64,000 bases of DNA from Gigantopelta aegis (taxonomy: Eukaryota > Mollusca > Gastropoda > Neomphalida > Peltospiridae), in NCBI RefSeq assembly GCF_016097555.1, contig NC_054708.1:20796983-20860982 (forward strand), in the 5' to 3' direction. The number at the start of each line of letters is the position of its first letter. Position 1 is the stretch's first letter. This document shows, piece after piece, positions 7,305-63,784 of this stretch. The position numbers and the translations under genes are program-made. Below the pieces are notes generated by a model. That model saw only the letters and a program-made list of their open reading frames with translations. It did no database searches and had not been told where the DNA came from.

Positions 7305-7664
7305 CTACTGTAATGCTCTAGACATATATCGTGCCTCCATCGCTGAATATTGAATTTCTAGCGAGTCGACAAACTCCGAAGTGTCTTTGTTGATGATGTA
7401 ATCGCGCTGGTAGGTCTGAGCTATCGTCATTCTACGGAACTTGTCGGGCATAACCGAGCGTGTCACGTGAGCGTCAACGGTTGAGTTGAGATTGCGAAGG
7501 CAGACGTCGATTTTGCACAGCATGGAGTAGACGTTTTCCTCCACCCGACTGACTTCGTTGATGAACTGAGACTGGTGACGGGTCACTTCGTCTAGATGCA
7601 TCTGTTCGAGCCAAACGGCGAGTTTCGACAGAGTCGTGTAATCCTTTTTCAGTGCCGTGACCGT
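7305..7664 (-). CDS. Gene A coding exon 3 (helices B, C, D)
   Basis: This exon encodes 119 codons plus TAG, after acceptor TTGCAG (7670-7665). Motifs shared with gene B exon 4 are WLEQ/FLEQ in helix B, SMLC/SILC in helix C, HVTRxVM in the CD loop and RDYxxxKD in helix D. The first 50 residues align to B without gaps. Confidence 0.78.
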   Translation of the reverse strand, partial: TVTALKKDYTTLSKLAVWLEQMHLDEVTRHQSQFINEVSRVEENVYSMLCKIDVCLRNLNSTVDAHVTRSVMPDKFRRMTIAQTYQRDYIINKDTSEFVDSLEIQYSAMEARYMSRALQ

Positions 7665-8084
7665 CTGCAATGATATAAAATTACAAATGTAAGTCAATGC
7701 ACATTTTAAGTACACAAAAATTCTGGAATAAGTTAATTGTGGTCTTGGGGGGGAAGCAAACTGGCAACCGAAGATAAATGTTTAGCAGTGGCCAATATTA
7801 GAAAACAAAACCTGGCCATACCTTTTAAAAAAACAAACCCATCCCTGTTGGAGTTTGTTTTGGTTGGGGTTTTTTTTTTAGGTTTTTTAGGTTTGGTTTT
7901 GTTTGTCTTTTTTTTCAAATTAAAATCAAATTTTTAAGAGATCATTGACTCACTTGCCCACAATTCCAGAATTCCCACTGAATACATTTAACATAATTTA
8001 TCTGTCAGGAGCGTATTAGTCAATGCTCGAAAATCCATATAAAGGAAATATAATTTTAAATACCCAAAATATAGAAATAAACTG

Positions 8085-8126
<42 letters not shown>

Positions 8127-9547
8127 GGAAATATACACGAGGGAAGAAATATCGAAATATAAATACCAAAGTAGAAAGAATGGAATTACAGATTACTCCG
8201 AGTTCAAACAAAACAATGTCTGAAATTATTCCAGACAGACAGATAGGCAGACAGACGAACATATGGACGTACAAAGAAAAACAGACACATGGACGGAAGG
8301 TAAGACAGACGGACAGAAAGGCAAGCAGAAGATCAGACAGACTGATAGAAAGGTTTACAAATTGACATACTAAACAAAAAGGGACTGATAACGGACGGAT
8401 GGATGGACGGACGGACGGATGGATGTGTTGATAAAACAATACTAATATACATACATCAGAATCGGCGTCGTTGATTGCTTCATCGGATGATTTTTTCAGC
8501 GGGAAACCATCCAGGTGCACGTTGTCCAAGACAGATGCCATGTCATTGCTGAGAACTCGCTGTAATCGCTACAACAGAGAAATCAAAGAATGCTATTAAA
8601 GACACGTTACAGTATGGTTGTATATGAATAATAGTAATGGAATGAAGGAAATGTTTTATTTAACGAATTTTATTTACGGTTATATGGCATCGGTACTGGT
8701 ACATCAAAGGCCGTCGTGTGTGCTATCGTATCTATGGGATTGTGCATATACAAGACCCCTTGCTACTAATGGCAAAGTATAGCGGGTTTCATCTCTAAGA
8801 CTACAATATGTCAAAATTACCAAATGTTTGACATCCAATAGCCGATGATTAATAAATCAATGTGCTCTAGTGGTGTCGTTAAACAAAACAAATTGTCAGT
8901 TAATAAAAAAGGTCAAATGTTGCAGTTACGTCTATTTTGTAAATATGAATAAAAAACCGATAAAAAACGATTTATGGATCGTGTTGAATGGATCCACCGA
9001 GGTGGTTCGAACCTGCGACGCAAGGACCTCAGTCGAGAACTCAACCGACTGAGCTAAATGCGTGAATATAGTTCTAATCACCAAGCATTTTAATAACACA
9101 GTAATATGAGGTCTTCCCCGGTTAGACACTAACTGCTATTCTAAATGAAAGGACACGCTTTGGGGGGTGGGGGGGGGGGGGGGGTGGGGGGGGGATCGGT
9201 CCGTATAGATATCAGATATTTTGCTCCGATATCATGTATGCCGCGTTAATGCCGTGACAAATTACAAGCCGTACAAAGAAAGCGTCGCCACTGTTCGTAT
9301 AAAGTCAAACAAAGAATGCGTTGCCGGTGTTCGTGTTATTTTCCTGGTATGCTGGGATCGTAACACGGATCACATTCACATGATCGTTAGACCAGCCTCG
9401 AAAATAACGCATACATATACTTATGTCCAAAAGAAACTTTACAAAAAAAAAAGAAAGAAAAAATATTTAAATGGTGTTAAATGTTTCTGCTCTTAAGGAA
9501 TGACATTTTGTTCAAAACATGCCAAAACACCATTCTAATGAATATGA

Positions 9548-9602
<55 letters not shown>

Positions 9603-10865
9603 TGAGTAATGTAGCCCAGTGGTAAAGCGCTCGCCTGATGCGCAGTCGGTCTAGGATCGATCCCCGTAGGTGGAACATACTTCTTGTTCATGCCAGTGTC
9701 ACCACGACTGGTATATTAACGGCCGTGGTATGTGCTATCCTGTCTGTGGGATGGTGCATATAAAAGATACATTGCTACTAATGGAAACATGTAGCGGGTT
9801 TCCTCTTTAAGACTACATGTACACGTCAAAATGACCATATGTTTGACATCTAATAGCCGATGATTAATAAATTGATGTGATCTAGTGGTGTCGTTAAGCA
9901 AAACAAACTCACTATCAACTAACCGTAAGGGTCGTTTACCATGTGCGCGGTACGGGAGCTACGAGGGCGTTGTGCGGGTGCGAAACTTTCAAAAACGAAC
10001 TCGTTAAAAACAAATAAATTATCAACCAGTCCTCAACCCCATTCATTGACAGACATCCCAGATAACTGAGGTGTGCGCCTAGAACAGCATGTTTGAACCT
10101 TAGATGGATGTAAGGACGAAACCAAATGAACCCTAAAGTAAAAAATTAAAAAAAAAAGGTACAATTCAATCAACCGCGTGTCGCTAACGTTAAATTTACG
10201 TTAAAAGGTCCTGGGCCAACCGCTTGTCGCTAACGTCCCCTGGACTTGTTTATGCGCTTCACGTTAAACCAAATGGCCACGTCGGGAACCAATCAAATAG
10301 TACTCGAACGTTAGCAAAACGTTCGCTGGCTGAACTTAGGGCAGATACAAATATTTTAATCCCATCACCTTAAACCTTCACCGTGGTTTTCTCATAGATC
10401 ATCGGAAGTGTCCGTAAGAGTCACTACAACAAGGTACTTTGATTTTGAATTGTTTCATACCTAAGAAGGGAGATAATTTTTCTTTCTATTTAATCAGATA
10501 TTTTTCTCAGATAAAAATCTGAACATTTCTACATCGTACGCTACGAACACCATCCGATGGTTGCCGAAAAGAAAACCTTTACACCAACACCCCGTGCTTA
10601 GAAATGGTCGGATACTAACGTTAGAACTTACGTATTTCACCCGAAGTTGTCTGGAATAGTCCACTCCGCTTTGAGTGAGGGCCACTATTTCTCCCAGTGT
10701 CTCGTTGAGGGGAGGGAGTGGTAGAGGATTCGGCATCTGGATTTCAAAACTCCCGCATGGGCGAGTCCAACGTGGTGTGGAGCGTCTGATGAGCGGGGAG
10801 GAATATGCTAAACATATTACTGAAGCAAGAGTAACCAGCAAAAACATTAGTTTCGTTGTGGCCAT
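7305..10865 (-). CDS. Gene A: secreted four-helix cytokine-like protein (LIF/CNTF-like), 235 aa, 3 coding exons
   Basis: Coding exons are 10865-10632, 8568-8455 and 7664-7305, joined by phase-0 introns with GT/AG ends (donors GTAAGT and GTATGT). Residues 1-22 form a signal peptide with a long hydrophobic core. Arg-Arg at 27-28 may be a processing site. The motif Trp33-x-x-Pro-Cys37 follows, then a Pro-rich linker and an amphipathic helix A (about 52-95) that spans the first intron. The AB loop contains VHLDGFPL. Helix B is about 120-145, helix C about 152-175 with Cys166 and Cys171, and helix D about 195-230. Length, helix order, all phase-0 introns and the cysteine pair match vertebrate LIF/OSM/CNTF/CLCF1 cytokines, but no database search was possible. 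ATG 10865 is chosen because it starts the signal peptide; a splice acceptor 7 nt upstream suggests a non-coding leader exon. The likely role is a secreted ligand. A different secreted helical family remains possible. Confidence 0.72.
8089..8122. repeat. (TA)n microsatellite in gene A intron
   Basis: It is absent from the same place in the duplicate (near 17958), so it expanded in copy 1 only. Confidence 0.85.
8228..8425. repeat. GACA/GGAC-type simple repeat in gene A intron
   Basis: Degenerate CAGA, GACG and GATG units. It is kept in the duplicate at 18070-18270. Confidence 0.7.
8455..8568 (-). CDS. Gene A coding exon 2 (end of helix A, AB loop)
   Basis: This exon encodes 38 codons, bounded by acceptor TTGTAG (8574-8569) and donor GTATGT (8454-8449), phase 0 on both sides. 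It begins RLQRV and contains VHLDGFPL, which aligns without gaps to VHLNGQPL in gene B. Confidence 0.75.
8644..8892 (+). mobile_element. Chimeric SINE: inverted family I tail joined to family II 3' half
   Basis: 8644-8697 is a family I tail in antisense. 8698-8892 is a family II centre and tail in sense, ending TCGTTAAACAAAACAAA. It is duplicated at 18484-18735, so the chimera predates the duplication. Confidence 0.7.
8985..9060 (-). mobile_element. tRNA-like SINE head fragment
   Basis: On the minus strand it matches the head of the SINE at 62764 (GCTGAGTCGGTTGAGT and a GGTTCGAA-like B box). Confidence 0.5.
9161..9194. repeat. Poly(G) tract
   Basis: Long G run with two T interruptions, in the gene A intron. 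Confidence 0.9.
9550..9605. repeat. (TA)n(TG)n microsatellite
   Basis: About 20 bp of TA followed by about 35 bp of TG. The duplicate locus has a much longer TA tract (19420-19503). Confidence 0.9.
9606..9908 (+). mobile_element. SINE family II, near full length
   Basis: A-box TAGCCCAGTGGTAAAGCG and B-box GGATCGATCC are present. The tail is GTGTCGTTAAGCAAAACAAAC. Only its 3' part remains in copy 2 (19806-19918). Confidence 0.8.
10056..10130 (+). mobile_element. SINE family IV tail fragment
   Basis: The GAGGTGTGCGCCTAGAACAG to GGACGAAA block resembles the tails at 51430-51500. It is duplicated at 20060-20130. Confidence 0.5.
10632..10865 (-). CDS. Gene A coding exon 1 (signal peptide, WxxPC motif, start of helix A)
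   Basis: This exon encodes 78 codons, from ATG at 10865 to the codon TAC just before the donor GTAAGT (10631-10626). A T-rich acceptor ending in CAG lies at 10875-10873, so a 5' UTR exon probably lies further upstream (higher coordinates). No leader exon like those of B and C was found; it could fall in the assembly gap. A possible N-glycosylation site (NET) lies at residues 54-56. Confidence 0.75.
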
Positions 10866-10884
10866 TTTGGATCTGAAAAAAACA

Positions 10885-11086
10885 GGAGAATTTTTTTTAA
10901 ATGTTATTTTATGAAATTAATTAAATGGCATTTGTAGTGCAATTGTTATGAAGTTTAGATAAATATTTCGTTAAGTCTAACAATAAAATGTCAAGCAATT
11001 TCTACTCTTTATTTTTCATTTTAAAATTATCTTAATAACTAATTATTAATGTAGCGTGTATGTATGTACGTCCATACATATATATG

Positions 11087-11151
<65 letters not shown>

Positions 11152-12440
11152 GTTCTGTAGTTATATAATTTAAAATAAATGAAATTCTCATAATACATTT
11201 AATTTGTTCATATTTAATTTTTGGATATCATGTATAAAAGATTTCCAGGTAAAAGTATGCTTCAAAGTCAATCATAACGAAAGTATGTTATTCAATAACT
11301 AATTAATAATGTCTCTGTCTATATACATTAATATATTACTGTATAATAACGACATTAATATAATGCCGCGTTCTCAACTAATCAGTATTATCTTGATTTC
11401 TTTCGTTTTTTTACTTACTTACTTTTATAGTAATTGACGAGCCTATATCCAATTAGCGTTTCGTTTTCTTAAGACTAGTGCGATATTTGCTTGATCTGTT
11501 GAGATATTTAAAGAGATCTGTTTGATTTTGGGATTTTCTTTTCTTTTATATATTTCTGGGGGATTTCCAAATATAAATGGATTGCATGCATGAGCTAAAG
11601 AAACCCAAAAATATCCATCGGAAGGGGCTGCCCCCGCACTGATATTACTAACAACCAATTAAAAACATCACAACACGGACATAGATTCTTCTGCGGTCAG
11701 AAAATTATACAACGATTCGGGATTTCACCTCCTTGCGAGCTCGATTAAATATAGGTCACAGGTCGCATTTGTATGCGCATACACATTTCCGATTCGAGGT
11801 GTGACCTCTTATTTTGCCGACCATGACACATAGGTGTTTTACTTTTATCGTCGAGAATGTTTTCTCAAGGAATACCCTATGGTTATTTTGTGCTTATTTC
11901 GATCATATTACACGGATCACGTCTGTTGGATTATGGACAATTTTGTGACTCTAAACAGAAAAAGAAGTGTTTTGGAATTCTATCTGTGTGAAAATTAAAG
12001 TGGAAAATAAAAGTATTCGCGGCCATGTCGTAGTGAAGATAAGGAAGTGAATTCCGCTTGTGATAAAAGAGATAAATATACATTGTAGGTCATGCGGCCA
12101 GGTGTTTTGTTAAAGTCCAAACGTGCTACGGCGTATATATACAACGGTAAAGTTAGTGGTACGGTACTTTGAAAATAATGAAAATAAACATATAATCTTT
12201 CTTTTTTTTAGTTATTGCTGCTTTTTTTATTTTTAAGAATGTGTATAATATTATAAAATGGTCTCACTGTTGTACTTTATAACAAAAATAAATTCCAGCA
12301 GTTCACAGACATAAAATTACAGTACATTAAATCTCACTAAACGTAAGCTTCGTGAATCGTATCACAATGGTAAAGCAGTTCACCATAAAATTACAGTACA
12401 TTAAATCTCACTAAACGTAAGCTTCGTGAATCGTATTATT
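10885..12440. other. Upstream region of gene A; no gene recognised
   Basis: The sequence is AT-rich with a (TG)n tract at 11089-11147. It should hold the gene A leader exon and promoter on the minus strand. Short TATA-like strings occur (for example near 11422 and 12126), but none pairs convincingly with a donor. A direct repeat of about 60 bp lies at 12309-12370 and 12380-12437. Confidence 0.35.
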
Positions 12441-12447
12441 CTTTATT

Positions 12448-12858: not shown

Positions 12859-13058
12859 NNNNNNNNNNNNNNNNNNNNNNNNNNNNNNNNNNNNNNNNNN
12901 NNNNNNNNNNNNNNNNNNNNNNNNNNNNNNNNNNNNNNNNNNNNNNNNNNNNNNNNNNNNNNNNNNNNNNNNNNNNNNNNNNNNNNNNNNNNNNNNNNNN
13001 NNNNNNNNNNNNNNNNNNNNNNNNNNNNNNNNNNNNNNNNNNNNNNNNNNNNNNNNNN
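12859..13058. other. Assembly gap (200 N)
   Basis: The run of exactly 200 N suggests a gap of unknown true length. It lies 2 kb upstream of gene A, next to LINE sequence. Confidence 0.99.
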
Positions 13059-13064: not shown

Positions 13065-13699
13065 ACAATTAAAACTATCTCTAAGTGGGAGCAGGTGCCG
13101 GGGTGCGAATCCCAATACGTAGTAGCCCTAAGTCCGATGGCTTAACCATTACACATTACAACACCGATACGGATACAGATCTTTAGTATTCAGAGCACGT
13201 AAAACTAATCACGACAATAATAACATCGAGGTGTCAATTTGTTTCTTCTAGTTTTATTTTGAAGTTGGGCAGTCTTTAAAGCCTTGGAGGAAATAAAGGA
13301 TTCTACTGCATCCAGATTTATTATCTTCACAGAGTCACTTCCGTGTCTCCAAGCTTTACGGAATATGAAGCTAGAACATCCCTTAGTTGGGATGGTGATA
13401 CGAAAGTGCGTCTTTTTATCCATTGCCAATAAAGACATATTTTATTTTGTTGGGTGCCCAGCCATGTTGGCATCAGGGGTAATGACAAGGCAGATTCGGA
13501 CGACAAGTCTGCTTTCAATTTGCCTCATGCTGGGGTTGGTGTGCCTTATACTGGTTTTAAACATAGTATTAACCCATTTATCTGTTCAACTTGGCAAGAT
13601 GATAAGAACGGAACGGTTGCAAACAAGCTTCATTCTGCCAAGCCAGTCCTGGGAGAGTGGTAATCCATGTATAGGCGGTGCAGAAAGGATGAAATAGTC
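13065..13699 (+). mobile_element. LINE-1a fragment, RNase H domain remnant
   Basis: It encodes degenerate RNase H pieces in two frames: FIIFTESLPCLQALRN, then PSHVGIRGNDKAD. It is the inverted counterpart of 4600-5345 and is cut at about 13690 by another LINE. Confidence 0.65.
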
Positions 13700-17248: not shown

Positions 17249-17605
17249 CTATAATGCCCTAGACATATATTGTGCCTCCATCGCTGAATATTGAATTTCT
17301 AGCGAGTCGACAAACTCCGAAGTGTCTTTGTTAATGATGTAATCGCGCCGGTAGGTCTGAGCTATCGTCATTCTACGGAACTTGTCGGGCATAACCGAGC
17401 GTGTCACGTGAGCGTCAACGGTTGAGTTGAGATTGCGAAGGCAGACGTCGATTTTGCACAGCATGGAGTAGACGTTTTCCTCCACCCGACTGACTTCGTC
17501 GATGAACTGAGACCGGTGACGGGTCACTTCGTCTAGATGCATCTGTTCGAGCCAAACGGCGAGTTTCGACAGAGTTGTGTACTCTTTTTTCAGTGCCGTA
17601 TCCGT
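17249..17605 (-). pseudogene. Gene A' exon 3 (open)
   Basis: This exon encodes 118 codons plus TAG, lacking the final Gln of gene A because CAG-TAG is replaced by an earlier TAG. The helix C SMLC, HVTRSVM and RDY motifs are all retained. Confidence 0.72.
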
Positions 17606-18298: not shown

Positions 18299-18412
18299 AT
18301 CAGAATCGGCGTCGTTGATTGCTTCAACGGATGATTTTTTCAGCGGGAAACCATCCAGGTGCACGTTCTCCAAGACAGATACCACGTCATTGGTGAGAAC
18401 TCGCTGTAATCG
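18299..18412 (-). pseudogene. Gene A' exon 2 (open)
   Basis: This exon encodes 38 codons with acceptor and GTATGT donor as in gene A. It reads RLQRVLTNDVVSVLENVHLD and continues as in gene A with one D to V change. Confidence 0.72.
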
Positions 18413-20839: not shown

Positions 20840-21722
20840 GACTGGAGTTGACTCGAGCTAAGTGCTCGCCTGAGGTGCTTTGGGTCAAAGGATTGAATCC
20901 CCTCAGCGGACCCAATCTTTGATTATTTTTTGTTTCTTCTATCCCAACCACTGGCCTTATCTGTGGGAAAATGCTTATAAAAGACCCCTTGCTGCTAATA
21001 AAAAAACAAATGTAGCGGGTTTCCTATGTTTTTCTTAAACGCAGGTGTTTAATATTGCAAATATATGTAGTTACACGCGTGTAAGACATAATCAGGTGTT
21101 TAATATTGCAAATATAGGTAGTTACACGCCTGTAAGACATAATCAGGTGTTTAATATTGCAAATATAGGTAGTTACACGCGTGTAAGACATAATCAGGTG
21201 TTTAATATTGCAAATATAGGTAGTTACACGCTTGTAAGATATAAACAGGTGTTTAATATTGCAAATATATGTAGTTACACGCGTGTAAGACATAATCAGG
21301 TGTTTAATATTGCAAATATATGTAGTTACACGCTTGTAAGATATAAACAGGTGTTTAATATTGCAAATATATGTAGTTACACGCGTGTAAGACATAAACA
21401 GGTGTTTAATATTGCCAATATCTGTAGTTACACGCGTGTAAGACATAAACAGGCTTTGTACATTCGGCCTTCTATGGTTCAGAATTACAGGGCCATACCC
21501 TCCGAGGGGCATGTGTGTGTGTGTGTGGGGGGGGGGGGGGGCAGCTGCAGAGCATACACATCTGAGGGTTTAATTTGTAGTGTTTCATTTGTTTTTAAAA
21601 AGTAGTGCCCCCTAGGATTTTGTTCAGAGTACGGCCCTGAATTACCAAATATTTGACATCCAATAGCCCATGATTAATTAATCAACGTGCTCTAGTGGTG
21701 TCGTTAAACAAAACACACTTTA
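20840..21722 (+). mobile_element. SINE family II split by a 51-bp minisatellite
   Basis: The head and centre are at 20840-21027 and the tail resumes at 21643-21722. The tandem array and ~190 bp of further sequence lie between. Confidence 0.6.
21042..21452. repeat. 51-bp minisatellite, 8 units, open on both strands
   Basis: Each unit holds CAGGTGTTTAATATTGC and a palindrome TTACACGCGTGTAA in its best form. The 51-bp period is 17 codons, which explains long frames on both strands. Nothing suggests these are translated. Confidence 0.9.
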
Positions 21723-21838
21723 CTTTACTTACTCTTCGGAGTTTTTTTATGTATCGAGACTGGAAATCCTACGAACATCATCCGCTTTGAGTGAGGGCCT
21801 TTATTTCTCCCAGTGTCTCGTTGAGAGTAGGGAGTCCT

Positions 21839-29136: not shown

Positions 29137-30714
29137 TCAACTTCGGGACAGGGCATCAGCGATTACATTGGATGTGCCCTTGATATGTTCAATGGTAATT
29201 GGGAATTCCTGCAGAAGAAGACTCCACCTCAAAACTCTCTGGTTGGTGGCTTTCATTCTGTGAATGAAAGTGAGCGGATTATGGTCCGTAAAGACAACCA
29301 CTTGATGCATTGCCGATTTCACGTAGATCTGAAAATGCTCCAGAGCTTGTACTATGGCCAAAGCTTCCTTCTCTATAGTGGAATAGTTCACCTGGTGTTT
29401 GTCAAACTTTTTGGAGAAGAAACTTACAGGATGGTCCAGTCCATTTTCGTCTTCTTGGAACAGCACAGCTCCAGCTCCCACGTCACTGGCATCCACAGCT
29501 AGCTTGAAAGGCATTCGGTAGTCTGGTGCTGCCATCACGGGAGACGAGGAGATCATCTGCTTGAGACGGTTGAATGACTTCTCGCATTCATCTGACCACT
29601 GGAACTTCGTTTCCTTCTTTAGCAGCGATGTGATGGGGGCAGCTACCGTCGCAAATTTAGCACAGAAACGACGATAATAACCGGCCATACCAAGGAACCG
29701 GCGAACTTCACTACGGTTGGTCGGTGCAGGATACTGGCTGATCCTTAGTGTCTTGGCCTGCAGAGGAGCGACGCAACCATGTCCGACAGTATGACCTAAG
29801 TAGGTCACTGAAGCTTTCACGAATTCACATTTGCCAGTCAAATTAGCTTTCTGTAGGCGACTGAATATTTGTTGTAACCCGGTTAAATGTTCATCCCAAG
29901 TGTCGGTGGCTAACACCACATCGTCCAGATACACACTGACGTTTTCTAGGTCTGATAACACCTGGTTCATCATCCTTTGAAAGGCAGCAGGGGCAATTTT
30001 CAAACCAAACGGCATCACTCGGAATTGGAAGAGGCCGTCAGGTGTGATGATCGCCAGAATGTCCTTAGCTTCCTCCGTTAACGGAATGGCATAAAAACCC
30101 TTCAGTAGGTCCAATTTGGTGATGTATTGCGCGTGTCCAACTCGGTCGATGCAATCGTCAAGGCGGGGTAGAGGGTAGGCATCTGCCTTGATGAGTTGAT
30201 TCACGCGACGTAGGTCAGCACACACCCGGAAACTGTTATCTACCTTTTGAATCAGAATAACAGGTGATGCCCACTGACTGTTTGATGGTTCCAGAATGTC
30301 GTGTTCCAACATGTAATCTATCTCCTTTTTCAGTGCCGCACGTTTTACCGGATTTATCCGATAGGCATGCTGTCGAATCGGTGTAGCGTTGGGTTCCAAG
30401 CGCACATCCTGGCTTAAGGTATTGGTAACCGTTGGAAGGTCCTGACAAATTGAAACATTGTCTTGTATCAGCGTATTCAACTTTTCTCGCTGGGGGTTCA
30501 AGTCTGCTAGAATCTGGCTGTTGGTTAATTTGATCTCTGCAGTCGTCACGTCATCACAGGAAATTGAGTGACTCTCAATTTGGACCGGTAACTCTGGAAC
30601 TATCGGCAGTCTGTCAAAATAACCTTTTAGCAAATTGATGTGACAATACCTACTTTTCCTAACCCTATCAGAAGTGTTTATCACATACCCTGTCTCATTA
30701 ACCTGTTTGTGCAC
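29137..30714 (-). CDS. Retrotransposon reverse transcriptase-RNase H frame
   Basis: The frame is open for 525 codons. The first ~35 residues (ending CHINLLKGYF) look like the end of an integrase. Reverse transcriptase follows at about 130-320, with FRVCADLRRVNQ, KLDLLKGF and the catalytic YLDD. RNase H at about 405-520 has DASDVGAGAVL and FTDHNPLTF. The frame ends ADALSRS-stop, typical of the end of this domain. One in-frame TAG (30736-30738) separates it from the upstream pol remnant. Activity is unlikely without integrase. Confidence 0.85.
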   Translation of the reverse strand: MHKQVNETGYVINTSDRVRKSRYCHINLLKGYFDRLPIVPELPVQIESHSISCDDVTTAEIKLTNSQILADLNPQREKLNTLIQDNVSICQDLPTVTNTLSQDVRLEPNATPIRQHAYRINPVKRAALKKEIDYMLEHDILEPSNSQWASPVILIQKVDNSFRVCADLRRVNQLIKADAYPLPRLDDCIDRVGHAQYITKLDLLKGFYAIPLTEEAKDILAIITPDGLFQFRVMPFGLKIAPAAFQRMMNQVLSDLENVSVYLDDVVLATDTWDEHLTGLQQIFSRLQKANLTGKCEFVKASVTYLGHTVGHGCVAPLQAKTLRISQYPAPTNRSEVRRFLGMAGYYRRFCAKFATVAAPITSLLKKETKFQWSDECEKSFNRLKQMISSSPVMAAPDYRMPFKLAVDASDVGAGAVLFQEDENGLDHPVSFFSKKFDKHQVNYSTIEKEALAIVQALEHFQIYVKSAMHQVVVFTDHNPLTFIHRMKATNQRVLRWSLLLQEFPITIEHIKGTSNVIADALSRS

Positions 30715-30738
30715 AACATAGGGCCCGAAATACCTGTT

Positions 30739-31500
30739 CTACAATGAACCCCGTTTAATGAGAAGGTACAGCAGCACTTTATCCCCTGGTTTAAATTCCC
30801 GACTCCTAGTCTTCCTATCAAACACTGATTTTATTTTGCTCTGAGCATGGCTCAGTTGCTTTCTAGCCTTCCTATCTCTAACTCTATTATTCATTAATAC
30901 TCCCTTGTCCATATCATAACCTGACCTCTGATCCTCCTTCTCACCCTCAGTTAACAATGTAGTGCGAGCTGCCAACAAATTTGGATCAGCCCCCTGCTCT
31001 AGGACTAACTCTTGTCTATTACAATGTAAGGCCCCTCTATCAAACACAACTGGTTCATTTACCCTCTGCGGAAGTTCAACAGGTTCCACCACATTTATAT
31101 CGTCAGTTGACTTATCTACCATTTTACTGATAACCTCATCCACTCCAATTTCATGGCTCAAACACGTATCAGACAAATCACAAATATCCTCTGGGTCTTG
31201 TGTTACCATTCTGGCCATAGCCCTAGTCTTTACACACGCAGGATATCTAATCTCATCAACCTCACTCTCTTCTATTGGTAAAAGGCTGTCTTTAATTAGC
31301 AATTGGTCACATTTCGGCTGACAACACTGACTAGTGAAATCATTACCCAACAAAACTCCTATGTTTTCAACTGGCAAGTCCTTTACAACACCCATAACGA
31401 CTGGTCCCGTCACAAACTTCGAACACAAGAAAACGTTATGTAACCGGACAACCGTATGTTCTCCAGTCACCAAGGTTAAAGCAAAACTACGTCCTGTATC
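30739..31500 (-). pseudogene. Pol remnant: protease C-terminus and integrase C-terminal piece
   Basis: It reads IGVLLGNDF (retropepsin end), PACVKTRAMAR linker, then DRKTRSREFKPGDKVLLY (integrase C-terminal type). The catalytic core expected between them is absent. It ends at a TAG codon before the reverse transcriptase frame. Confidence 0.65.
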
Positions 31501-31510
31501 TGAATTCTCA

Positions 31511-31898
31511 ACCGGCCTCAGTGGCGTCATGGCAGGCCATCGGTCTACAGGCTGGTAGGTACTGGGTTCGGATCCCAGTCGAAGCATGGGATGTTTAATC
31601 CAGATACCGACTCCAAACCCTGAGTGAGTGCTCCGCAAGGCTCAATGGGTAGGTGTAAACCACTTGCACCGACCAGTGATCCATAACTGGTTCAACAAAG
31701 GTCATGGTTTGTGCTATCCTGCCTGTGGGAAGCGCAAATAAAAGATCCCTTGCTGCTAATCGGAAGAGTAGCCCATGTAGTGGCGACAGCGGGTTTCCTC
31801 TAAAAATCTGTGTGGTCCTTAACCATATGTCTGACGCCATATAACCGTAAATAAAATGTGTTGAGTGCGTCGTTAAATAAAACATTTCTTTCTTTCTT
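31511..31898 (+). mobile_element. SINE family III inserted in the retrotransposon protease
   Basis: The head is CCGGCCTCAGTGGCGTCATG and the tail TCGTTAAATAAAACATTTC plus TTTC. It is flanked by the target duplication GAATTCTCA at 31501-31510 and about 31900-31909, so it landed after the LTR element. Confidence 0.85.
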
Positions 31899-44309: not shown

Positions 44310-44322
44310 ATGGATATGCTAG
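44310..44322 (+). CDS. Gene B coding exon 1 (13-nt coding leader)
   Basis: ATG GAT ATG CTA G precedes donor GTAAGA. It lies 96 nt after a TATA box. The only reason to join it to 49585 is that it supplies the start codon and correct phase for the signal peptide, and gene C has an equivalent 13-nt exon (61067-61079). Confidence 0.65.
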
Positions 44323-48036: not shown

Positions 48037-51000
48037 TACCATTAAAGCACATTGATTTGTTAATCATCAGCTATTGAATGTCTAACATTTGGTAATTCTG
48101 ACATAGTCTTAAAGAGGAATCCCGCTACAGTTTTCTATTATTAGCACTATCCCACAGACAGGATAGCACATACCACGGCATTTGATATTCCAGTAGTGGT
48201 GTACTGTCTGGAACGAAAAATAGCCCAATGGGCCCACCGACGGTTATCGATCCAACACCGACCGCACTTTATCACTGGGCTACGTTCCGCCCCTTAGATG
48301 AGCGCAAAAAAAATCAAAATCAAAAAAAAATCCAAAAAAAATCAATCATTTGTTTAAAGCTCAAAATGCATTTTTAAGTTAAAAAAAACAAAACACAAAA
48401 AAAAAAAATAATAATAAAATAAATAAATAAAATGTTATTGTAAGGTAAAATCCAGTTTAATTACTACAAAATTAAGACGATCATAATAAAATTAATTGGA
48501 TACTCAGATATTGATGTTACTGTTATAAGCAAAACATATATAACCAATATATAATTTTAATAGTAAAAAAACAGGTCTTCTGTAACGGTAATCAGATAAC
48601 ATGTTACAATGGCTGCACAATAATGGACATCTCTTTTTGATTTAACAATGTCCCATTACGCGGGGCAAATCACTGTGCATTAAATATGTGGAGCACATTA
48701 CCGACATTGAGCAATTTAAAGTGACCTAGCACAGGAAACAATATTACAAAGCCCACTTCAATGCATTATTTGACTCAACGACAAAGCGATATACGTCAAA
48801 GTAAACTTCATGTTATACACTGTTGGCTGAATTCCCAGGGAATGCTAGACATGTAATACGATTCGCTGAACATGATATATCGCTTCTTTCTAATTTAATA
48901 TGCAAATCTTCATTTCCAACAGTGAAAATTGATCAATATAGACACAGGCGCGTGTGCAGGGTTTTTTTTTCAGTGTATTTTTCTGGGAAACATGACTCGA
49001 TCCATCCCCCACCCCCCACCCCCCAAACACTTCGCTCGTCGCAGTCTATAACTCCTGGCCCCCATGCGCAATTTACTTCAAAGGCGCCTGAGAGCGAGAC
49101 GTAGCCCAGTGGTAAAGCGCCCGCTCGATGCGCGGTCGGTCTGGGATCGATCCCCGTCGGTGGGCCCATTTGGCTATTTCTCGTTCCAGCCAGTCCACCA
49201 CGACTGGTATATCAAAGGCCGTGGTATGTACTACCCTGTCTGTGGGATGGTGCGTATAAAAGATCCCTTGCTGCTAGTCGAAACGAGTAGCCCATGAATT
49301 GGCGACAGCGGGTTTCCTCTCTCAATATCTGTGTGGTCCTTAACCACATGTCTGACGCCATATAACCGTAAATAAAATGTGTTGAGTACGTCGTTAAATA
49401 AAATATAACCTTCCTTCAAAGGCGCCTGCAGACATGGACACATGCAGAGAAGCATTCATTTCACAAACTAAAATCTCCAAACAAAACACCGAACATATTT
49501 CTTCTTTAATTCTTGTTTATACCAATCATTGCAGTTTTGTTTTGTTTTTAAATATATATATATATTTATATTTGAAAATTTCAGGACGATTACTGTTAGT
49601 TTTTCTTGCTGGCTCCGTTCTTCCGGTTTCACATCATTTCCCACTACTGGACCGGAAACGACGAAGTGCCCCGGATTTACCATGGGCAACACCATGCGCA
49701 CCTGCAGGGTCCTCCGGTCAAGCCCCAGGAGCCATCGTTTTCCCATTCCAACCTCCCATGAGTGATCTAGTCAACGAACTTTACATCAGATCCCAAGAGG
49801 GTCACATCTTGTCGGGAAATCTCAAGAACCATTTTGTAAGTGAGCAATAAAAGAAATATTGCATTATTTTACTGTTGTATGATAGCTAAACATTTGGTAA
49901 TTTTGACATATAGTCTCAGAGAGAAAACATACTATGATTAGTAGCAACATTTATGTTGCACACCAAAACAGCTGTAATTTGAAATGAGCGTGATGTGTTA
50001 TTAAATATTACTTTCTTGTTCTCTTCATGACTCAAACCCCCGTCCCACACATTTTGTTCGTCACAGTCTAGACCCCCCCCCCCCCCCCCCCCCCCCCCCC
50101 CGACCCCCACCCGCATAATTTCCTGCACATCCACTCGCTCTTCTCTCCTCTGGGGCCTAATTCACTAAACTCTCGTAACTTTACGATGTCGCAGTGCAAT
50201 GCAAAAATACTTGCAAAGAGGATACTTTGTTGTCTAGCAGAGCCTAAGTGACCTTTGTGAATAAAGCCCCAGGTCTCCTCTCCTTTCTTTTCTTCTCCTC
50301 GCCTTTCCTTTCCTTTCAATATACTGGTATTTGTTTTATACTGTCAATGTTCCAATATTAGAGAAGTCTTACTGTTTTGTTTTTCAGTTTGTACACAGAA
50401 TAGACTCAAGTCTGGACATTGCACAGTACCTGGAAAAAGTTCACCTCAACGGACAGCCGCTTCCTGGTCACGTGATGGACTGGAACAATAAAAACGAGGT
50501 GAGGACATTAATGGTGACCGGTCTCGGTGGTGTCGTGGTTAGGCCATCGGACAAAAGGCTGGTAGGTACTGGGTTCGCAGCCCGGCTTCCACCCAGAGCG
50601 ATTTTTAACGACGCAATGAGTAGGTGTAAGACCAATACACACACACTCTCTCTCTCTCTGCCAATAGCTGAGGTGTGGGCCCAGGACAACGTGATTGAAC
50701 CGTAATTGGATATAAGCACGAAAATAGCTTGAAATAAAATGGAAAAATAAAATGAAATAAATTGTGATACTATTTTATCAATGTCCGCGCCGTACACTAC
50801 GCAGCATTTGTTACCGCGCGGAAAAACCCCATCCCAAAATGAATAAAAGTTATACCTACTATTTGAGGCGGGCTGACGGCAATAGGTCATTTACATAAAG
50901 TGGTAATATCGCCGTTCAGTTATAACTATCCAAGTGTCCTTCTAGATCTCGAACGGCGGAATGTCAATATCTACCTGTTTGTTTGCCTCTCTATATGTGT

Positions 51001-51210: not shown

Positions 51211-51998
51211 GAACCAATCGTGTACACTCTCACAACCGGCTGGGTGGTGTCGTGGTTACGTCAAAGGACATAAGGCTGGTAGGTACAGGGTTCGCAGCCC
51301 GGTACCCGCTCCCACCCAGAGCGAGTTTTAACGACTCGGTGGATAGGTGTAAGACCACTACAGCCTCTTCTTTCTCACTAACCACTAACCACTAACTACT
51401 AAACCACTGTCCTGGACAGACAGCACAGACAAATGAGGTGTTCTCCAAGGACAGCGTGCTTGAAGCTTAATTGGATATAAGCACGAAAATAAGTTGAAAT
51501 GAAATATGAATGAATACACTCTCACATTATCTCTATCCCTCGATTTCTCTTTCTCCACCTCCACCAAATGTCAAACTGACCGCACGAAATCAGTCATTTA
51601 AAATGTGCATTTATTTTTTATTTTTTTATATTCCTTTCGTTTCTTTTCAGACGGGTGATGTTCTAATAACAGACTTCATCAATCTATCCACTGTACTGGT
51701 CTTTCTGGAACAGATTCTGGTCGATGACCTTGAACACGAGAACAGCTCCTCGCAGACCGAGATGAAGACTCTGGAGAACAAACTGTTCAGCATCCTGTGT
51801 CAGACGGAAACCATACTGCAGACTCTCGGACTAAAGGTGCCGAGTCACGTGACCAGAGACGTCATGGACAATGCTTTGCGTGACGTCAAGAACACCGCGG
51901 ATCGTCGTAAACGAGACTACACCATGGCGAAAGACGCTGTCCATCTCATGAAGGCCAACGAAGACAACCATATAAAGATGAAAGCTGCGTACAACTGA
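44310..51998 (+). CDS. Gene B: secreted four-helix cytokine-like protein (LIF/CNTF-like), 240 aa, 4 coding exons
   Basis: Coding exons are 44310-44322, 49585-49835, 50388-50498 and 51651-51998. The first intron is phase 1 and the other two are phase 0; donors are GTAAGA, GTAAGT and GTGAGG. The joined product starts MDMLGRLLLVFLAGSV, a clear signal peptide. A furin-type RKRR site (28-31) is followed by Trp38-x-x-Pro-Cys42, then helix A (about 60-110), an AB loop with VHLNGQPLPG, helix B with FLEQ, helix C with Cys175 (SILC), and helix D after HVTRDVM. After the signal peptide there are only two cysteines, 42 and 175, placed to link the N-terminal segment to helix C as in LIF and OSM. Vertebrate LIF, CT-1 and CLCF1 have a comparable Gly-x-Pro-Phe AB-loop motif. 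The function as a secreted cytokine is inferred. Confidence 0.72.
44664..44989 (-). mobile_element. SINE family I in gene B intron 1
   Basis: Full length on the minus strand. A 45-bp direct repeat (AAAATATTATATTTCGTATT) lies beside it at 44573-44663. Confidence 0.8.
44990..46085. other. Gene B intron 1, no exon recognised; degenerate MITE-1 relative
   Basis: About 45590-45880 shows MITE-1-like pieces (TTAAATATATTTTCTTGTTT, then AGGACTGTCTCTTT). The rest is AT-rich. Confidence 0.4.
46087..46160. repeat. (TA)n microsatellite
   Basis: About 74 bp of pure TA. Confidence 0.9.
46294..46668 (+). mobile_element. SINE family III, full length
   Basis: CCGGCCTCGGTGGCGTCGTG to AAATAAAACATTTC plus TTTC. 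Confidence 0.85.
46692..47240. other. No gene recognised
   Basis: Part of gene B intron 1; one short open frame (46914-47108) has no recognisable feature. Confidence 0.35.
47247..47645. repeat. Poly(G) and (ACT)n microsatellite
   Basis: A G run at 47247-47269, then ~240 bp of ACT units (47404-47645). Confidence 0.85.
47655..47882 (-). other. Unrecognised 75-codon open frame
   Basis: Base composition is more even than in the surroundings. The product has HVTSVLDVG and a hydrophobic LRNVMLTVVMINSTIM stretch. It lies antisense in gene B intron 1. No splice partners or family were recognised, and it may be chance. Confidence 0.15.
48030..48294 (-). mobile_element. SINE family II
   Basis: Tail at a poly(T) run (48008-48030), head near 48290, diverged. 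Confidence 0.65.
48300..49090. other. No gene recognised; A-rich and AT-rich spacer
   Basis: Part of gene B intron 1. 48420-48640 shares short blocks with the degenerate MITE-like region near 45720. Confidence 0.35.
49096..49415 (+). mobile_element. SINE family I in gene B intron 1
   Basis: GACGTAGCCCAGTGGTAAAG to GTTAAATAAAATATAACC. It ends about 170 bp before coding exon 2. Confidence 0.82.
49585..49835 (+). CDS. Gene B coding exon 2 (signal peptide core, WxxPC, helix A start)
   Basis: The acceptor TTTCAG ends at 49584 and the donor GTAAGT starts at 49836. The exon begins in phase 1 (two bases complete a codon) and then runs 83 codons. It contains RLLLVFLAG, RKRRS, PWATPC and the start of helix A ending NLKNHF. 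Confidence 0.75.
50071..50101. repeat. Poly(C) tract
   Basis: About 30 C in gene B intron 2. Confidence 0.9.
50388..50498 (+). CDS. Gene B coding exon 3 (helix A end, AB loop)
   Basis: The exon encodes 37 codons between acceptor TTTTTCAG and donor GTGAGG, phase 0 at both ends. It reads FVHRIDSSLDIAQYLEKVHL, then NGQPLPG. Confidence 0.76.
50516..50745 (+). mobile_element. SINE family IV in gene B intron 3
   Basis: Head GGTCTCGGTGGTGTCGTGGT, GGGTTCGCAGCCCGG B-box region, tail GGATATAAGCACGAAAATA. Confidence 0.7.
51118..51207. repeat. (TC)n microsatellite
   Basis: About 90 bp of TC in gene B intron 3. Confidence 0.9.
51235..51510 (+). mobile_element. SINE family IV, second copy in gene B intron 3
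   Basis: Head CTGGGTGGTGTCGTGGTTAC, tail TTAATTGGATATAAGCACG. Confidence 0.7.
51651..51998 (+). CDS. Gene B coding exon 4 (helices B, C, D)
   Basis: The exon encodes 115 codons plus TGA after acceptor TTCTTTTCAG. It has TGDVLITDF, FLEQ, SILC, HVTRDVM and KRDYTMAKDA. NLS and NSS are possible N-glycosylation sites. GC content is higher than the surroundings, as expected for a real exon. Confidence 0.78.
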   Translation, partial: TGDVLITDFINLSTVLVFLEQILVDDLEHENSSSQTEMKTLENKLFSILCQTETILQTLGLKVPSHVTRDVMDNALRDVKNTADRRKRDYTMAKDAVHLMKANEDNHIKMKAAYN

Positions 51999-57399: not shown

Positions 57400-58100
57400 A
57401 TTTCTTTATTGAGATACACTCTACATGTAGCAATAGAGTTGGCAATTTCCGCAAAACGATGTTTGTTTTCTTGTCTTCAATTGCTTCTATGAACTGCTAT
57501 GTTCAACAGTTAAAAGCTAGGTTCATACTTCTCTGCCGACACTGGTCGGCGGGTACTCGGCACACTCCGTCGTGATTGTGTTCATACTCAGTCCGCTTTC
57601 CTCAAGCTCGACGTTCAACAGACGAGTGCATTTCGGAATTTACACGTGCGTTTTTTTACGGCTGACAATTCAGACATGGGATATATATACACACATACAC
57701 AATGTATATTTGCACGGGTTCTATTTTTGTCATATGACAACAGATCATGTATATAACAACATGGTACTGATAGTGGGCTACCAAATTTCTATGGATATGT
57801 GAAAAACATATTATCCATAGTGTTTAATTGACTTTTGTTTTTTTAACCTACATGTAATATTTGTAAGACATGTGAATGCTTACCGACATTTTAATATACG
57901 TTTACATACCTAAATAACTTAACATGTATGCTTAATGACATAGATGTGCAAAGTTTATCATTTTAAAGGGTTTTAGGTAAGCAGTATTACATAATATTAT
58001 ACAAAAACAATTATTTATGCAGGAAAATAAGTTGTGATTGGGGTGTCAACAGTAGATTTGTCACTAACTACAATGTAGTTTCATACGAAAGGGGCTAAGA
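57400..58100. other. No gene recognised
   Basis: Spacer with a short open frame (57572-57802) lacking features. Confidence 0.35.
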
Positions 58101-58109
58101 CTGTGTGTA

Positions 58110-58195
58110 AAAATTACCAAATGTTTAACATCCAGTAGCCGATGATTAATAAATCAACGTGCTCTAATGGTGTCGTTAAACAAAACAAACTTTAG
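58110..58195 (+). mobile_element. SINE family II tail fragment
   Basis: AACATCCAGTAGCCGATGAT to GTTAAACAAAACAAAC. Confidence 0.6.

Positions 58196-58599: not shown

Positions 58600-58636
<37 letters not shown>
58398..58636. repeat. (TAA)n and (TAG)n microsatellite
   Basis: TAA blocks flank about 80 bp of pure TAG. Confidence 0.88.
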
Positions 58637-58639
<3 letters not shown>

Positions 58640-59205: not shown

Positions 59206-59592
59206 TATATGCATGTTAACCTTACCTCACATCAAATCTAGTGTTTGCTGGTAATAATTAGGGGATACAGCGTCAACATTTTAAGGAAGAAAACAAATTA
59301 TCATCCATTAAAGGCTTTTGTAGGAGATATCGCTGGCACTATAATTTGCGATATATCCTGCGATATCTCCGCAGGAGATATCGCTTCTTATAATCTTGAC
59401 TGGTCAAATTTTAATTACAAGACAATATTTTTGTTACGCCACTGTGTTTGTTTCAGCGCTAAGCCTACCATTAGTGACGTCACGCCACTGCCGTTCTGCT
59501 AGTTAACGAGTCTACCATTGACATTCAACCCACATTACTGACATTGTTTACAACTGTCGCAAATGAAAAAAATGATAATGGATGATAAAAAT

Positions 59593-59737
59593 AATACCCC
59601 CCTCGTGTCTTGTAATATCATAATTTATCAGCACTCGTTGATAAAAGTATAAAATCCTCGACAAGCCTCGGATTTCATACATTTATCAACTCGTGCTGAT
59701 AAATTGTGATATGACAAAACACTCTGGGAGTATCCTC
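59593..59737. repeat. Long imperfect hairpin
   Basis: Arms of about 60 bp, with ATCATAATTTATCAGCACTC opposite its complement, around a short loop near 59657-59668. Confidence 0.7.
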
Positions 59738-59776
59738 CATTTCAGCTTTGACGATCAATACTACATGTATGTAAGC

Positions 59777-60270
59777 GGCGGGACGTAGCCCAGTGCTAAA
59801 GCGCTCGCTTGGTGAGCGGTTGGTTTGGGGTCGATCCCCGTCACTGGGCCCATTGGGATATTATTCGTTCTAGCCAGTGCACTATGACTGGTATATCAAA
59901 GGCCATGGTATGTACTATCCTGTCCAGTGGCTTATCTACTGAAAATAGTGCCTATGGCACGCACTGAAATTGCGCCCATGACTAAATATCTGACACCCAT
60001 CTTTTAGATAACGTCTGACTTTAATAGAAACTGTTCAGTGGCGCCCCCTTTCAAGTGGCGCCCAGGGCACGCGCAATACCTGCCACACCCTAGATACGCC
60101 ACTGATTCTGTCTGTGGGATGGTGTATATAATATAAAAGATCCCTTGCTAATAATGGACAAAAAGTAGCGGTAAGGCTATATGTCAAAATTACCAAATGT
60201 TTGACATCCAGTAGCAGATGATTAATAAATTAATATGCTCTAGTAGTATCGTTAAACAAAACAAACTAAC
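59777..60270 (+). mobile_element. SINE family II with a 170-bp internal insertion
   Basis: The head is GCGGGACGTAGCCCAGTG. The centre is interrupted at about 59936-60108 (CAGTGGCTTATCTACT to GATACGCCACTGA, ends that are inverse of each other). The tail is GTATCGTTAAACAAAACAA. Confidence 0.7.
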
Positions 60271-60599
60271 TTTATCATGTATGTATTATGTCGGGGTTTT
60301 TTATACTATTTTTTAACATTTGTTGCGCAGCGTCCAATATAAGGAATATAAAGAAATTATTCTGCAATTATTTTAAATGTCACCTGACATTTTTTTTGTT
60401 AAATGCAATATGAAGTGCATGACACTGGTGGCCTGATTACATGTTTTGTCAGAAAATGTTAACAATGTCACTGATGGAAAATGATTTTGGTACGAGGCAA
60501 CCTTGAGTGCCGGTGTACCGAACAACAATTACACATGACCTACACAATTTACCTTTCGCATAACTTTAGTCACGCATTCATTCACAGTATGAACTGAAC

Positions 60600-61066
60600 T
60601 GTCAGCAGCGAAAGTGCGCAGTCGTTGATTAAAATCTTTTCTCTAGTTAAAATATTTCAACAGAAAGTGAAACAAACATTGCATTGCTATGACACATTGC
60701 TAAACAATGCTAATGACACTTTAAAAGTATAGTTTAGTAGTCTCAATTTCTCTTTAAGCGTGACACATACGTATATACGATTGAAAATCGATTTTAATTA
60801 AGCGTTACAAACTGAAACTGGCGGGAAAGTGTGTTCTATATATAACATTGGGATGTTAAACTAACAGAAACTGCTAAACAATAACGTAAAAAACAACAAC
60901 AAAGAAAAACCCTACTAGCTCATTCAAAATATATTTTTTGTTTCAGTCACTGTTTAAAAATTAAAAAAAAAAATCTATATAAAACAAATTGCGACCAAGG
61001 GTTAATCAACAACTCTTAAAACTAAACTGTCGAATATAATTCTAAATAACTACAGTCACTGCCGAA
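60600..61066 (+). promoter_or_regulatory. Gene C promoter and 5' UTR
   Basis: A TATA box, TATATAAAA, is at 60976-60984. GAAAGTGAAAC (60663-60673) fits the IRF element GAAANNGAAA. CAAACTGAAACT (60808-60819) is one base from the ISRE core AGTTTCNNTTTC on the opposite strand. ACTGAAACT also occurs upstream of the gene B TATA box. No kappaB match was seen here. Confidence 0.42.
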
Positions 61067-61079
61067 ATGGATACTATTT
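61067..61079 (+). CDS. Gene C coding exon 1 (13-nt coding leader)
   Basis: ATG GAT ACT ATT T precedes donor GTAAGT. It has the same length, phase and Met-Asp start as gene B exon 1. TATATAAAA lies about 90 nt upstream. Confidence 0.62.
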
Positions 61080-63784
61080 GTAAGTACTAATTAATTACAT
61101 AAAATACTGGCTGCTGTCTTTAGTAGTTAAAAACATCTTAATTATAAATACATTTGTTATTAAAAATCAATAAAAATTAGTGCTGAATTGTAATTACAAC
61201 AAATAATAATAATAATAAATTCGTTAATCTTTTACTGCTGTTAATATTTTGCAAACGATATATTGCCACGATCTTACAAAAATGCTCATATCAACATAGT
61301 AATCATTTACATATGGGCGAGACGTATCCTAATGGTAAAGCGTTCGCTTGATGCGCAGTCTGTATCGAATCAATCCCCGTCAGTGGACCCACTGCGCTAT
61401 TTCTCTCTCATCAAAGGATGTGGTATGTGCTATCCTGTCTATGGGATGGTGCATAAAAAAGACCCCTTTCTGCTAATCAAGAAGAGTAGCCCATGAAGTG
61501 GCGACAGCGGATTTCCTGTCTCAATATCTGTGTTGTTCTTAACCATATGTCCGACGCCATATAACCGTAAATAAAATGTGTTGAGTGCATCGTTAAATAA
61601 AACATTGCCTTCCTTCCTTTCCTTCATTTACATGTAGTTCACTTTTAGATAGTACTTCACAGAATTATGAGTTTTTAAATATAAATATATTGCATTTCCT
61701 TTGTTATTCAAATATATATAAAACCTAGAAAATACACATCATTTATAACTTTTATTATACATGTATGCATGCAATTAAGACTTATGCTAGGATCAGACTC
61801 TCAACTGCCAGGAAAAGGTTGGCCAACTTTCTGCTCTCACGACTTCTACGACTGTCCAGTTGTAAGTCTGAGCCTTCTTACAACGCGATTCTCGTCGTAT
61901 AACTCATTAATCGTTAATCTGAGCGCACCCGTCTAAGTCGAGATTTGGGGACATTACAACGCAATCGTCGTGACAGTTGACAGTCTAACCCTAGCATAAA
62001 ACCTAGCATTACGAATTCGGGATATCACAGTGGCACGGTAAAGAGAAACATAAAAAATAAGCAGACAGACAGACAGAAAGACAGACAAACCCCACACTAT
62101 TTAATATACTTACAGCATACAAAATAACCATAGTTATTACAATAAAAATGTATTAATAATTTAGAAAAGTACAGAAGCTGCCTCAAATAAGACAGTTTAT
62201 ATGTAAAATAATTTTTTGTATGAAAACAATCTAACAAATGTGAGAAATATACGCATTAAATATATTTTCAGTTTATGAAAGAACCATGTGTAGTTATGTT
62301 TATAAAATGAATACTGTACGTGTATATGTTTTATTCACATACACATGTATATAGTCTTTGACGAAATAGATAATAACTGGTTTCCGTCTTATATGCGCTA
62401 ATCTGGAAGTAAAATTTGTATTAGTGTTGTAAAATAAATATACACTTATGGTACATACGATGTATATTGCCACAAAGAACAATTGAGAATAATTAAGCTT
62501 GATCAGTTCTACAGAATTTGTCATTCGCTTTATTTGTTGGACACTTAAATATTAGGTTAAACTTTATTTGTTTTGGCTTAAAGGAATATCCCAACAAGAA
62601 ACAAATACAAATACAAACACATGCACAAAAATAACACCAAGCAATCAACTATTGTGGCCTGTAATTGTGTATTTATTACATTCTAATACCTACCCAAAAC
62701 TAGATAAGAGGATAAATGCAATATGCTATTTTAGTCACAAAAAACCCCCCCAAAAACTGTTAGTCGGGGGCGGTATTTAGCTGAGTCGGTTGAGTGCGCG
62801 CTTGAGGTGCTTGCGTCGCAGGATCGAAACACGTCGGTGGATCCATTCAACTGATTGGGTTTTTCCCGTTCCAACCAGTGCACCACAACTGGTCAAAGAC
62901 CGTGGCATGTGCTTTCCTGTCTGTAGGAAAGTGCATATAAAAGATAGACAGACAGACAGATAGTTTATATAAACCTTGCTGTATTAGGAAAAATGTAGCA
63001 GGTTTCCTTTGATGACTACGTGTCAGAATTACCACATATTTGACATCCAATAACCGATGATTATTTAATCAATGTGCTCTAGTGGTGTCGTTAAACAAAA
63101 CAAACTTTTAACTGTTAGTCGGAAACATGACTTACAATGGCTGCGAACTCAGGGCTATCCCATTTGGCGACCAATTAAAACCATCTCTCTGCTTGTGTAT
63201 TTTTCTTACTGTCTCCCTGCCCGTCTATCCGTCTGCCTGCTAGACGGACTGTTTGTCGGTCTGTCGGTCTTACGGTCTTCGCATTTGGAAGCCCATTTGT
63301 CTGCTTGTCTCTCTGTCTGAGTGTCTCTCTATACATTATTTAGAAGAGCACTTATATAAGCTCTGCCTACTGTGTAATCCTTTTAACTTTTTTTTTTTAT
63401 CAATAAAATATCTCAAAACAAACAATATTTAGGCTACTCTCTTCACATTTTGGAGTTTTCCGTTACGTCATCGGTTTAAGATCTTCAAATCCAATAAATA
63501 ATTTCTACTTTCATTGCATTATTATATTATATTATACAGTATTGTTTGAGCTAGCCATTGCGCTGATTCACATCACCAGCGAATCTCACTCTCTCCCCGT
63601 CGTGGGTGCGGATCGGCCCTGGTCTCACCCATGCCTTGCTAGAAATAATCCAGTGACGTCATGGACAGGCCCTTCTAGTATCGCCAGTGGATTACCGGAG
63701 CCAACTTTAAAGGAACTTGTCACGGAACTCCGTGCCCGATCCAGAGAAGTGCACGCCCTTGCCAAGAAACTGAAGCAGAAAATC
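61067..63784 (+). CDS. Gene C: third cytokine-like paralogue, first two coding exons (partial)
   Basis: Visible coding exons are 61067-61079 and 63540-63784; later exons lie beyond the window. The first intron is phase 1 (donor GTAAGT) and the second is phase 0 (donor GTGAGT), as in gene B. The product starts MDTILLFELAIALIHITS, a plausible signal peptide. Trp32-x-x-Pro-Cys36 and an amphipathic helix A segment (KELVTELRARSREVHALAKK) follow, with the exon ending at the same helix position as in A and B. There is no Arg-Arg processing site before the WxxPC motif, unlike A and B. The family assignment depends on the motif, phase and length match, since helices B-D are not seen. Confidence 0.65.
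61315..61618 (+). mobile_element. SINE family I in gene C intron 1
   Basis: GGGCGAGACGTATCCTAATG to AAATAAAACATTGCC plus TTCC repeats. Confidence 0.8.
61620..62760. other. Gene C intron 1, no exon recognised
   Basis: AT-rich; short GACA repeat near 62060-62085. Confidence 0.4.
62764..63112 (+). mobile_element. SINE family II with a variant head, in gene C intron 1
   Basis: Head TTAGCTGAGTCGGTTGAGTG and GCAGGATCGAAAC, tail GTGTCGTTAAACAAAACAAA. Confidence 0.75.
63540..63784 (+). CDS. Gene C coding exon 2
   Basis: The acceptor TTATACAG ends at 63539 and the donor GTGAGT starts at 63785. Two bases complete the split codon, then 81 codons follow with RPWSHPC and helix A ending KLKQKI. Confidence 0.68.

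Follow-up and report, generated by a model that had tools for sequence, protein, structure and literature searches.

A tandem gene family of possible long-chain helical cytokines in the vent snail Gigantopelta aegis

Introduction

Whether an invertebrate encodes four-helix cytokines resembling LIF and CNTF is the question raised by one region of the genome of Gigantopelta aegis, a peltospirid gastropod living at deep-sea vents. To our knowledge, cytokines of the LIF/IL-6 type have been reported in hardly any invertebrates so far. The DNA analyzed is a stretch of 64,000 nucleotides (the window, C10:20796983-20860982 of the 1.15-Gb genome), in which a first-pass annotation had proposed a linked family of LIF/CNTF-like cytokine genes. 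According to a survey from 2026 that covers 18 phyla or subphyla, IL-6 family cytokines are found only in vertebrates, whereas molluscs already combine JAK and STAT with an IL6R-like receptor, and IL6R is traced to Mollusca (PMC13203501). On that account, molluscan receptors are left without a known ligand. Among the open-licence papers listed in searches, none names a molluscan ligand of the LIF/IL-6 type, as judged by title and the start of the abstract. A family of molluscan proteins whose helix plan resembles that of cytokines offers named candidate genes for the missing ligand.

The reading favored here, with a probability of about 0.58, is that the cluster is a molluscan family of long-chain helical cytokines, secreted and expanded in tandem within its lineage. 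Kinship with LIF and CNTF proper is a narrower form of that reading and is itself unlikely. If the broader reading is true, the origin of long-chain helical cytokines would be pushed beyond insects and vertebrates.

A cluster of six related loci

Six related loci, five apparently intact and one broken, lie within ~110 kb of a single contig (C10:20774380-20884548), as seen in the window and in twelve 10-kb pieces covering its flanks. Loci A, B, C, and the broken duplicate A' lie wholly or partly in the window. A'' is a full copy on the minus strand upstream of it, and D is a divergent member on the plus strand downstream (flank pieces L010, 9775 to the end, and L011, 2081-4552). The three spliced loci of the first-pass annotation were confirmed for A, B, and the leader/helix-A exon of C, with AG/GT ends, an open frame, and phase 0. 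However, the family proved real but larger than proposed, and A' does not carry the signal peptide and WxxPC motif ascribed to it, since nothing of its exon 1 beyond a remnant of 18 residues was found in the window and flanks. Whole-genome searches, which score the best candidates only, returned six matches to the last exon of B and seven to that of D, one of the latter being noise (E 3.65), and revealed no locus beyond the six.

The exons of A, B, C, and A' have AG/GT borders with phase-0 introns between them, and the exon order with phase-0 introns is common to the full-length members. In exon 3, A and B are 32% identical (tblastn E ~1e-13 in the window and flanks), so the family is no product of chance. 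Overall, B, C, and D are 25-31% identical to A. An alignment of the five full-length members contains 23 invariant columns, including WxxPC, LxGxP, S...V..EQ, LC, and R..M....R. The motifs first described for A and B (WxxPC, GxPL, [WF]LEQ, S[MI]LC, and HVTRxVM) hold on inspection of the sequences. A, A', A'', and B have the last of them unchanged, and it reads QVSRCVM in C and SASREAM in D. All five full-length members (A, A'', B, C, D) appear by eye to have hydrophobic N-termini, with candidate first exons in the case of B, C, and D.

The family is mostly unannotated: one member is annotated, as "uncharacterized". Searches of a protein database with the sequences and the family alignment returned only P0001 (uncharacterized LOC121384604, Gigantopelta aegis), which is identical to protein A from residue 7 of A to its end. 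P0001 represents a single sequence, so the database searches turned up no protein for A'', B, C, or D. No mention of LOC121384604 was found in the open-licence literature.

Predicted fold and an invariant cysteine pair

The family was modeled twice with AlphaFold, with a predicted local distance difference test (pLDDT) score of 48.0 for model 1 and 42.6 for model 2. In both of these low-confidence models, there are four long helices; the turn between B and C is very short, and the connections from A to B and from C to D are longer, an order and set of loop lengths that would fit the long-chain class I four-helix cytokines. For model 2, 44 of the 50 matches listed by VIA are long-chain class I cytokines, with CNTF, CNTF, LIF, and OSM in rows 1-4. 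Rows within 1 Z count as tied, so that LIF, OSM, prolactin, and their neighbors are not separated. In Foldseek, model 1 matches IL-6 best, short of E 0.001. The first-pass annotation expected long-chain cytokines as top matches and an up-up-down-down bundle; this holds as a ranking, for model 2 by VIA and for model 1 by Foldseek, but not as a significant score.

Two cysteines are invariant in all five full-length members, one in WxxPC, before predicted helix A, and one in LC, in the second half of predicted helix C. The part of B that was read contains these two cysteines only. They probably form one bridge that ties helix C to the N-terminal segment, much as LIF does with Cys18-Cys131, a pair placed similarly to that of the snail. 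OSM has a bridge comparable to that of LIF. The strict pattern LC[RH]LC occurs in only 11 of 18 LIF sequences ([HY]PC in 17 of 18), and the LIF side of the comparison thus rests on OSM and on human LIF, for which one report gives a peptide mass consistent with a Cys18-Cys131 bridge (PMC3865251). A bridge from the start of helix A to the later half of helix C would favor an up-up-down-down bundle, which brings these ends side by side, over an up-down-up-down bundle, which keeps them separate. The reasoning draws on the helix borders of the models and not on their packing.

Proposed activity and signaling partners

As cytokines, the snail proteins would be secreted four-helix ligands, perhaps trimmed at RKRR in the case of B, and the mature protein would fold up-up-down-down. 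Such a ligand could crosslink two receptor chains of the gp130/Domeless type through its helix A/C face and the end formed by the AB loop and helix D, and crosslinking would activate JAK and STAT. Local duplication and rapid divergence may tune individual copies, possibly to control immunity or symbiosis. In the genome, STAT_bind has two matches over the cut-off, close together on C1. A genome search for IL6Ra-bind gave no match, though the control was equally silent. The words 'cytokine', 'interleukin', and 'JAK' are absent from the examined passages of PMC7895826.

Alternative functions

Several results weigh against the cytokine reading. The pLDDT values of 48.0 and 42.6 mean low confidence for both models, and neither has a Foldseek match reaching E 0.001. 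For model 1, VIA places hairpins and coiled coils on top, with a single cytokine row among the 50 matches listed. A rival reading is a secreted helical family of another function, such as a lysin-like, fast-evolving gastropod reproductive protein or an effector in symbiosis or defence, with a fold that is cytokine-like in appearance only. Three points speak for it: the low-confidence models also match ferritins, Dps, and other bundles; a single copy turned up among annotated proteins; and A and A'' differ by 4 synonymous and 13 non-synonymous changes over 235 codons, a ratio of non-synonymous to synonymous rates (dN/dS) of ~1. This rival is possible, although clearly less likely than the cytokine reading. 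It leaves the cysteine pair and the loop pattern unexplained, and the other comparisons give lower dN/dS values: 0.63 for A and 0.52 for A'', each against A', and 0.37 for exon 3 of A against B, where dS is 2.1 and near saturation. The substitution pattern fits fast divergence after duplication; alone, it does not separate a cytokine from other fast-evolving secreted proteins.

No family of such other function is among the Pfam matches at E up to 10, which are scattered and weak. Egg lysin (PF01303) is not among them, HMMER dropping most weak matches, and lysin is also absent from the matches listed by Foldseek and VIA for both models. In BFVD, nothing is significant, the best row being a phage Dps (E 0.053). 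A Pfam scan of A, B, the leader exon of C, and exon 3 of A' gave no match, and nothing rose above a cut-off for the five full-length members. A weak CYP38_PsbQ-like match in two of the five (best E 0.0075; 12.8 bits for P0001 against a cut-off of 27) was taken as generic helix similarity. A search of PDB sequences with A found none. The family profile gave three weak rows there, two of them bL28m (best E 0.016) and the third a designed helical protein, and all were taken as chance. Apart from P0001, no relative came up in Pfam, PDB sequences, or the protein database. These silent searches are weak evidence, because phmmer with human CNTF against PDB finds no LIF or OSM either.

Relation to known cytokine systems

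Two narrower forms of the cytokine reading concern its kinship. In the first, the snail proteins are lophotrochozoan counterparts of insect Unpaired (Upd), or else they form a separate line of long-chain cytokines, also using a Domeless-type receptor, with no special kinship to LIF. Insect Upd1-3 are encoded by clustered genes and are helical ligands of a gp130-like receptor. The snail family is likewise invertebrate and clustered. Extreme sequence divergence and the tandem arrangement speak for this form, as does the grouping of Domeless with early-diverging IL6Rs discussed in the survey that traces IL6Rs to Mollusca and gives Upd1/2/3 as the ligands identified in insects (PMC13203501). We regard it as possible, although doubtful.

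In the second form, the proteins are true members of the LIF/CNTF/OSM branch, which would be older than the protostome-deuterostome split and kept in the snail. Besides the VIA ranking of model 2 and the LIF-like cysteine pair, this form draws on a GxP at the end of predicted helix A, comparable to GEPF of LIF, and on a leader phase-1 intron followed by phase 0 in B, C, and D. However, the VIA ties leave LIF, OSM, and prolactin unseparated, and the sequence marks of the branch differ. FxxK at the start of helix D marks LIF, CNTF, OSM, CT-1, and CLCF1 and forms LIFR site III. Every one of 120 vertebrate proteins examined (the top-ranked 120 of 281: 18 LIF, 40 CNTF, 32 CLCF1 by motif, and 30 unsorted) has F..K in the last 40% of the protein, and none of the five full-length snail proteins does. 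Shuffled snail tails contain it in 8-16%, so that its absence from the snail is what chance predicts and tells against membership only because all 120 vertebrate proteins have it. Compared with LIF and OSM (PF01291), the snail proteins also have a longer stretch from WxxPC to GxP, lack F..K near the C-terminus, and show no sequence-level match; LIF has six cysteines in three bridges, whereas two are invariant in the snail family. F..K likewise sets CNTF, CLCF1, and cardiotrophin-1 (PF01110, PF06875) apart from the snail proteins. CNTF is leaderless and lacks a comparable cysteine pair. PF01291, PF01110, and PF06875 are not among the Pfam matches to the snail proteins.

Profile comparisons are equally silent. 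A first profile-profile comparison with the snail family gave nothing significant (P 0.17). With hhalign, the family scored P 0.66, 0.55, and 0.24 against LIF, CNTF, and CLCF1, not clearly above the reversed decoys (0.39, 0.57, and 0.048). Among the controls, CNTF-CLCF1 gave 1e-4 and LIF-CNTF 0.023, but LIF-CLCF1 failed (0.43, decoy 0.12), and because this pair is also silent, the silence of the snail family decides nothing.

Intron positions may point the same way as F..K. LIF and CNTF have a phase-0 intron ~4 residues before the G of GxPF and no intron between the AB loop and helix B. In all five full-length snail genes, 20-21 residues separate the helix-A intron from the G of GxP downstream, and an additional intron lies in the AB loop. 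The intron match to the vertebrate group that had been claimed thus appears to stand for the phases and not for the positions in LIF and CNTF. The IL6 exons comprise the leader, helix A, a short AB-loop exon (114 nt, the length of exon 2 of A), and helix B, with phases 1,0,0. Snail exon order and phases match this pattern, and the snail layout is nearer to it than to that of LIF/CNTF. IL6 has an additional intron before helix D, and IL-6 has different disulfides. No sequence match links the snail family to IL-6, IL-11, or G-CSF.

Of the LIF/CNTF-like cytokine originally proposed, a four-helix, apparently secreted protein with cytokine-like spacing is supported by these predictions, whereas membership in the LIF/CNTF branch is not established, given F..K in none of five proteins, silent profiles, and models of pLDDT 48.0 and 42.6. 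True membership is hence rather unlikely. The same low standing applies to its boldest extension, in which molluscs would have genuine cytokines of the LIF/OSM type that already carry the disulfide from the N-terminus to helix C, the gp130-cytokine branch would predate the protostome-deuterostome split, and the cluster would supply the missing ligands of molluscan IL6R/Domeless-like receptors, expanded in a two-symbiont snail. Finally, chance open frames or decayed repeats without protein function might be suspected, since the region is repeat-rich and the protein database search did not return B, C, D, or A''. They are very improbable, with frame and splice sites kept in five loci despite 25-31% identity of B, C, and D to A, and with A itself a database protein.

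Features of the loci and the surrounding DNA

Table 1. Features of loci A, A', B, and C, in window positions.
Locus	Feature	Positions	Strand	Basis
A	Exon 1: ATG, hydrophobic leader, WTRPC, start of helix A (78 aa)	10632..10865	-	Frame, splice ends; equals P0001 from residue 7
A	Exon 2: remainder of helix A, HLDGFPL, AB loop (114 nt, 38 aa); both sides phase 0	8455..8568	-	P0001
A	Exon 3, 119 aa and stop; helices B, C, D predicted; WLEQ, SMLC, HVTRSVM	7305..7664	-	P0001; model helices
A'	Exon 1 remnant: 18 residues, stop at either side	21781..21834	-	Search of window and flanks
A'	Exon 2	18299..18412	-	Sequence, tblastn
A'	Exon 3 with stop; frame unbroken, 95% identity to A	17249..17605	-	Sequence comparison
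B	Candidate first coding exon ATGGATATGCTAG, 13 nt (MDML + 1 nt), GTAAG donor; unproven	44310..44322	+	Sequence inspection
B	Leader core, RKRR, WATPC, start of helix A; phase-1 entry	49585..49835	+	Frame, splice ends
B	37-aa exon: remainder of helix A, HLNGQPL, AB loop	50388..50498	+	Frame, splice ends
B	Final exon, 115 aa and stop; helices B, C, D predicted; FLEQ, SILC, HVTRDVM	51651..51998	+	Frame; exon 3 identity to A
C	Candidate first coding exon ATGGATACTATTT, 13 nt (MDTI + 1 nt), GTAAG donor; unproven	61067..61079	+	Sequence inspection
C	Leader core, WSHPC, start of helix A	63540..63784	+	Frame, splice ends
C	Remaining exons past window end	Window-equivalent 66501-66611 and 67770-68105 (flank L009 3484-3594 and 4753-5088)	+	Flank search

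A phase-1 intron enters the leader exons of B and C, so each needs an additional first exon (Table 1). With the candidate 13-nt exons, B would have 240 residues and C 234. The length of 235-240 residues first given for the family fits A (235) and, with its candidate exon, would fit B; C would fall just below it. D has a phase-1 intron in the leader and then phase 0, as in B and C. It is the most divergent member, with six cysteines in the part read and a BC turn five residues shorter. MFTLKK at L010 8629 is one among several candidate first exons of D. Between the leader and WATPC, the RKRR of B (49653-49664, plus strand) is a possible furin site, and in A, RR precedes WTRPC.

The window is rich in repeats. 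Two open frames on the minus strand, of 533 aa (29137-30738) and 300 aa (30739-31641), resemble by eye, with no family search made, the reverse transcriptase/RNase H of a Gypsy-type retroelement and the part preceding it. A 144-aa frame at 13263-13697 (plus strand) is similar by eye to the RNase H domain of an element of the long interspersed (LINE) type. An assembly gap or masked stretch of exactly 200 N occupies 12859-13058. At 20940-21551 lies a tandem array with a period of 51 bases and one open frame per strand. Highly repeated units resembling short interspersed elements (SINE-like) occur at, for example, 58096-58191 and 49094-49166; the tail of the SINE-like unit, TGGTGTCGTTAAACAAAACAAACT, has an exact genome count of 7418 + 7425, compared with 0 when read backwards.
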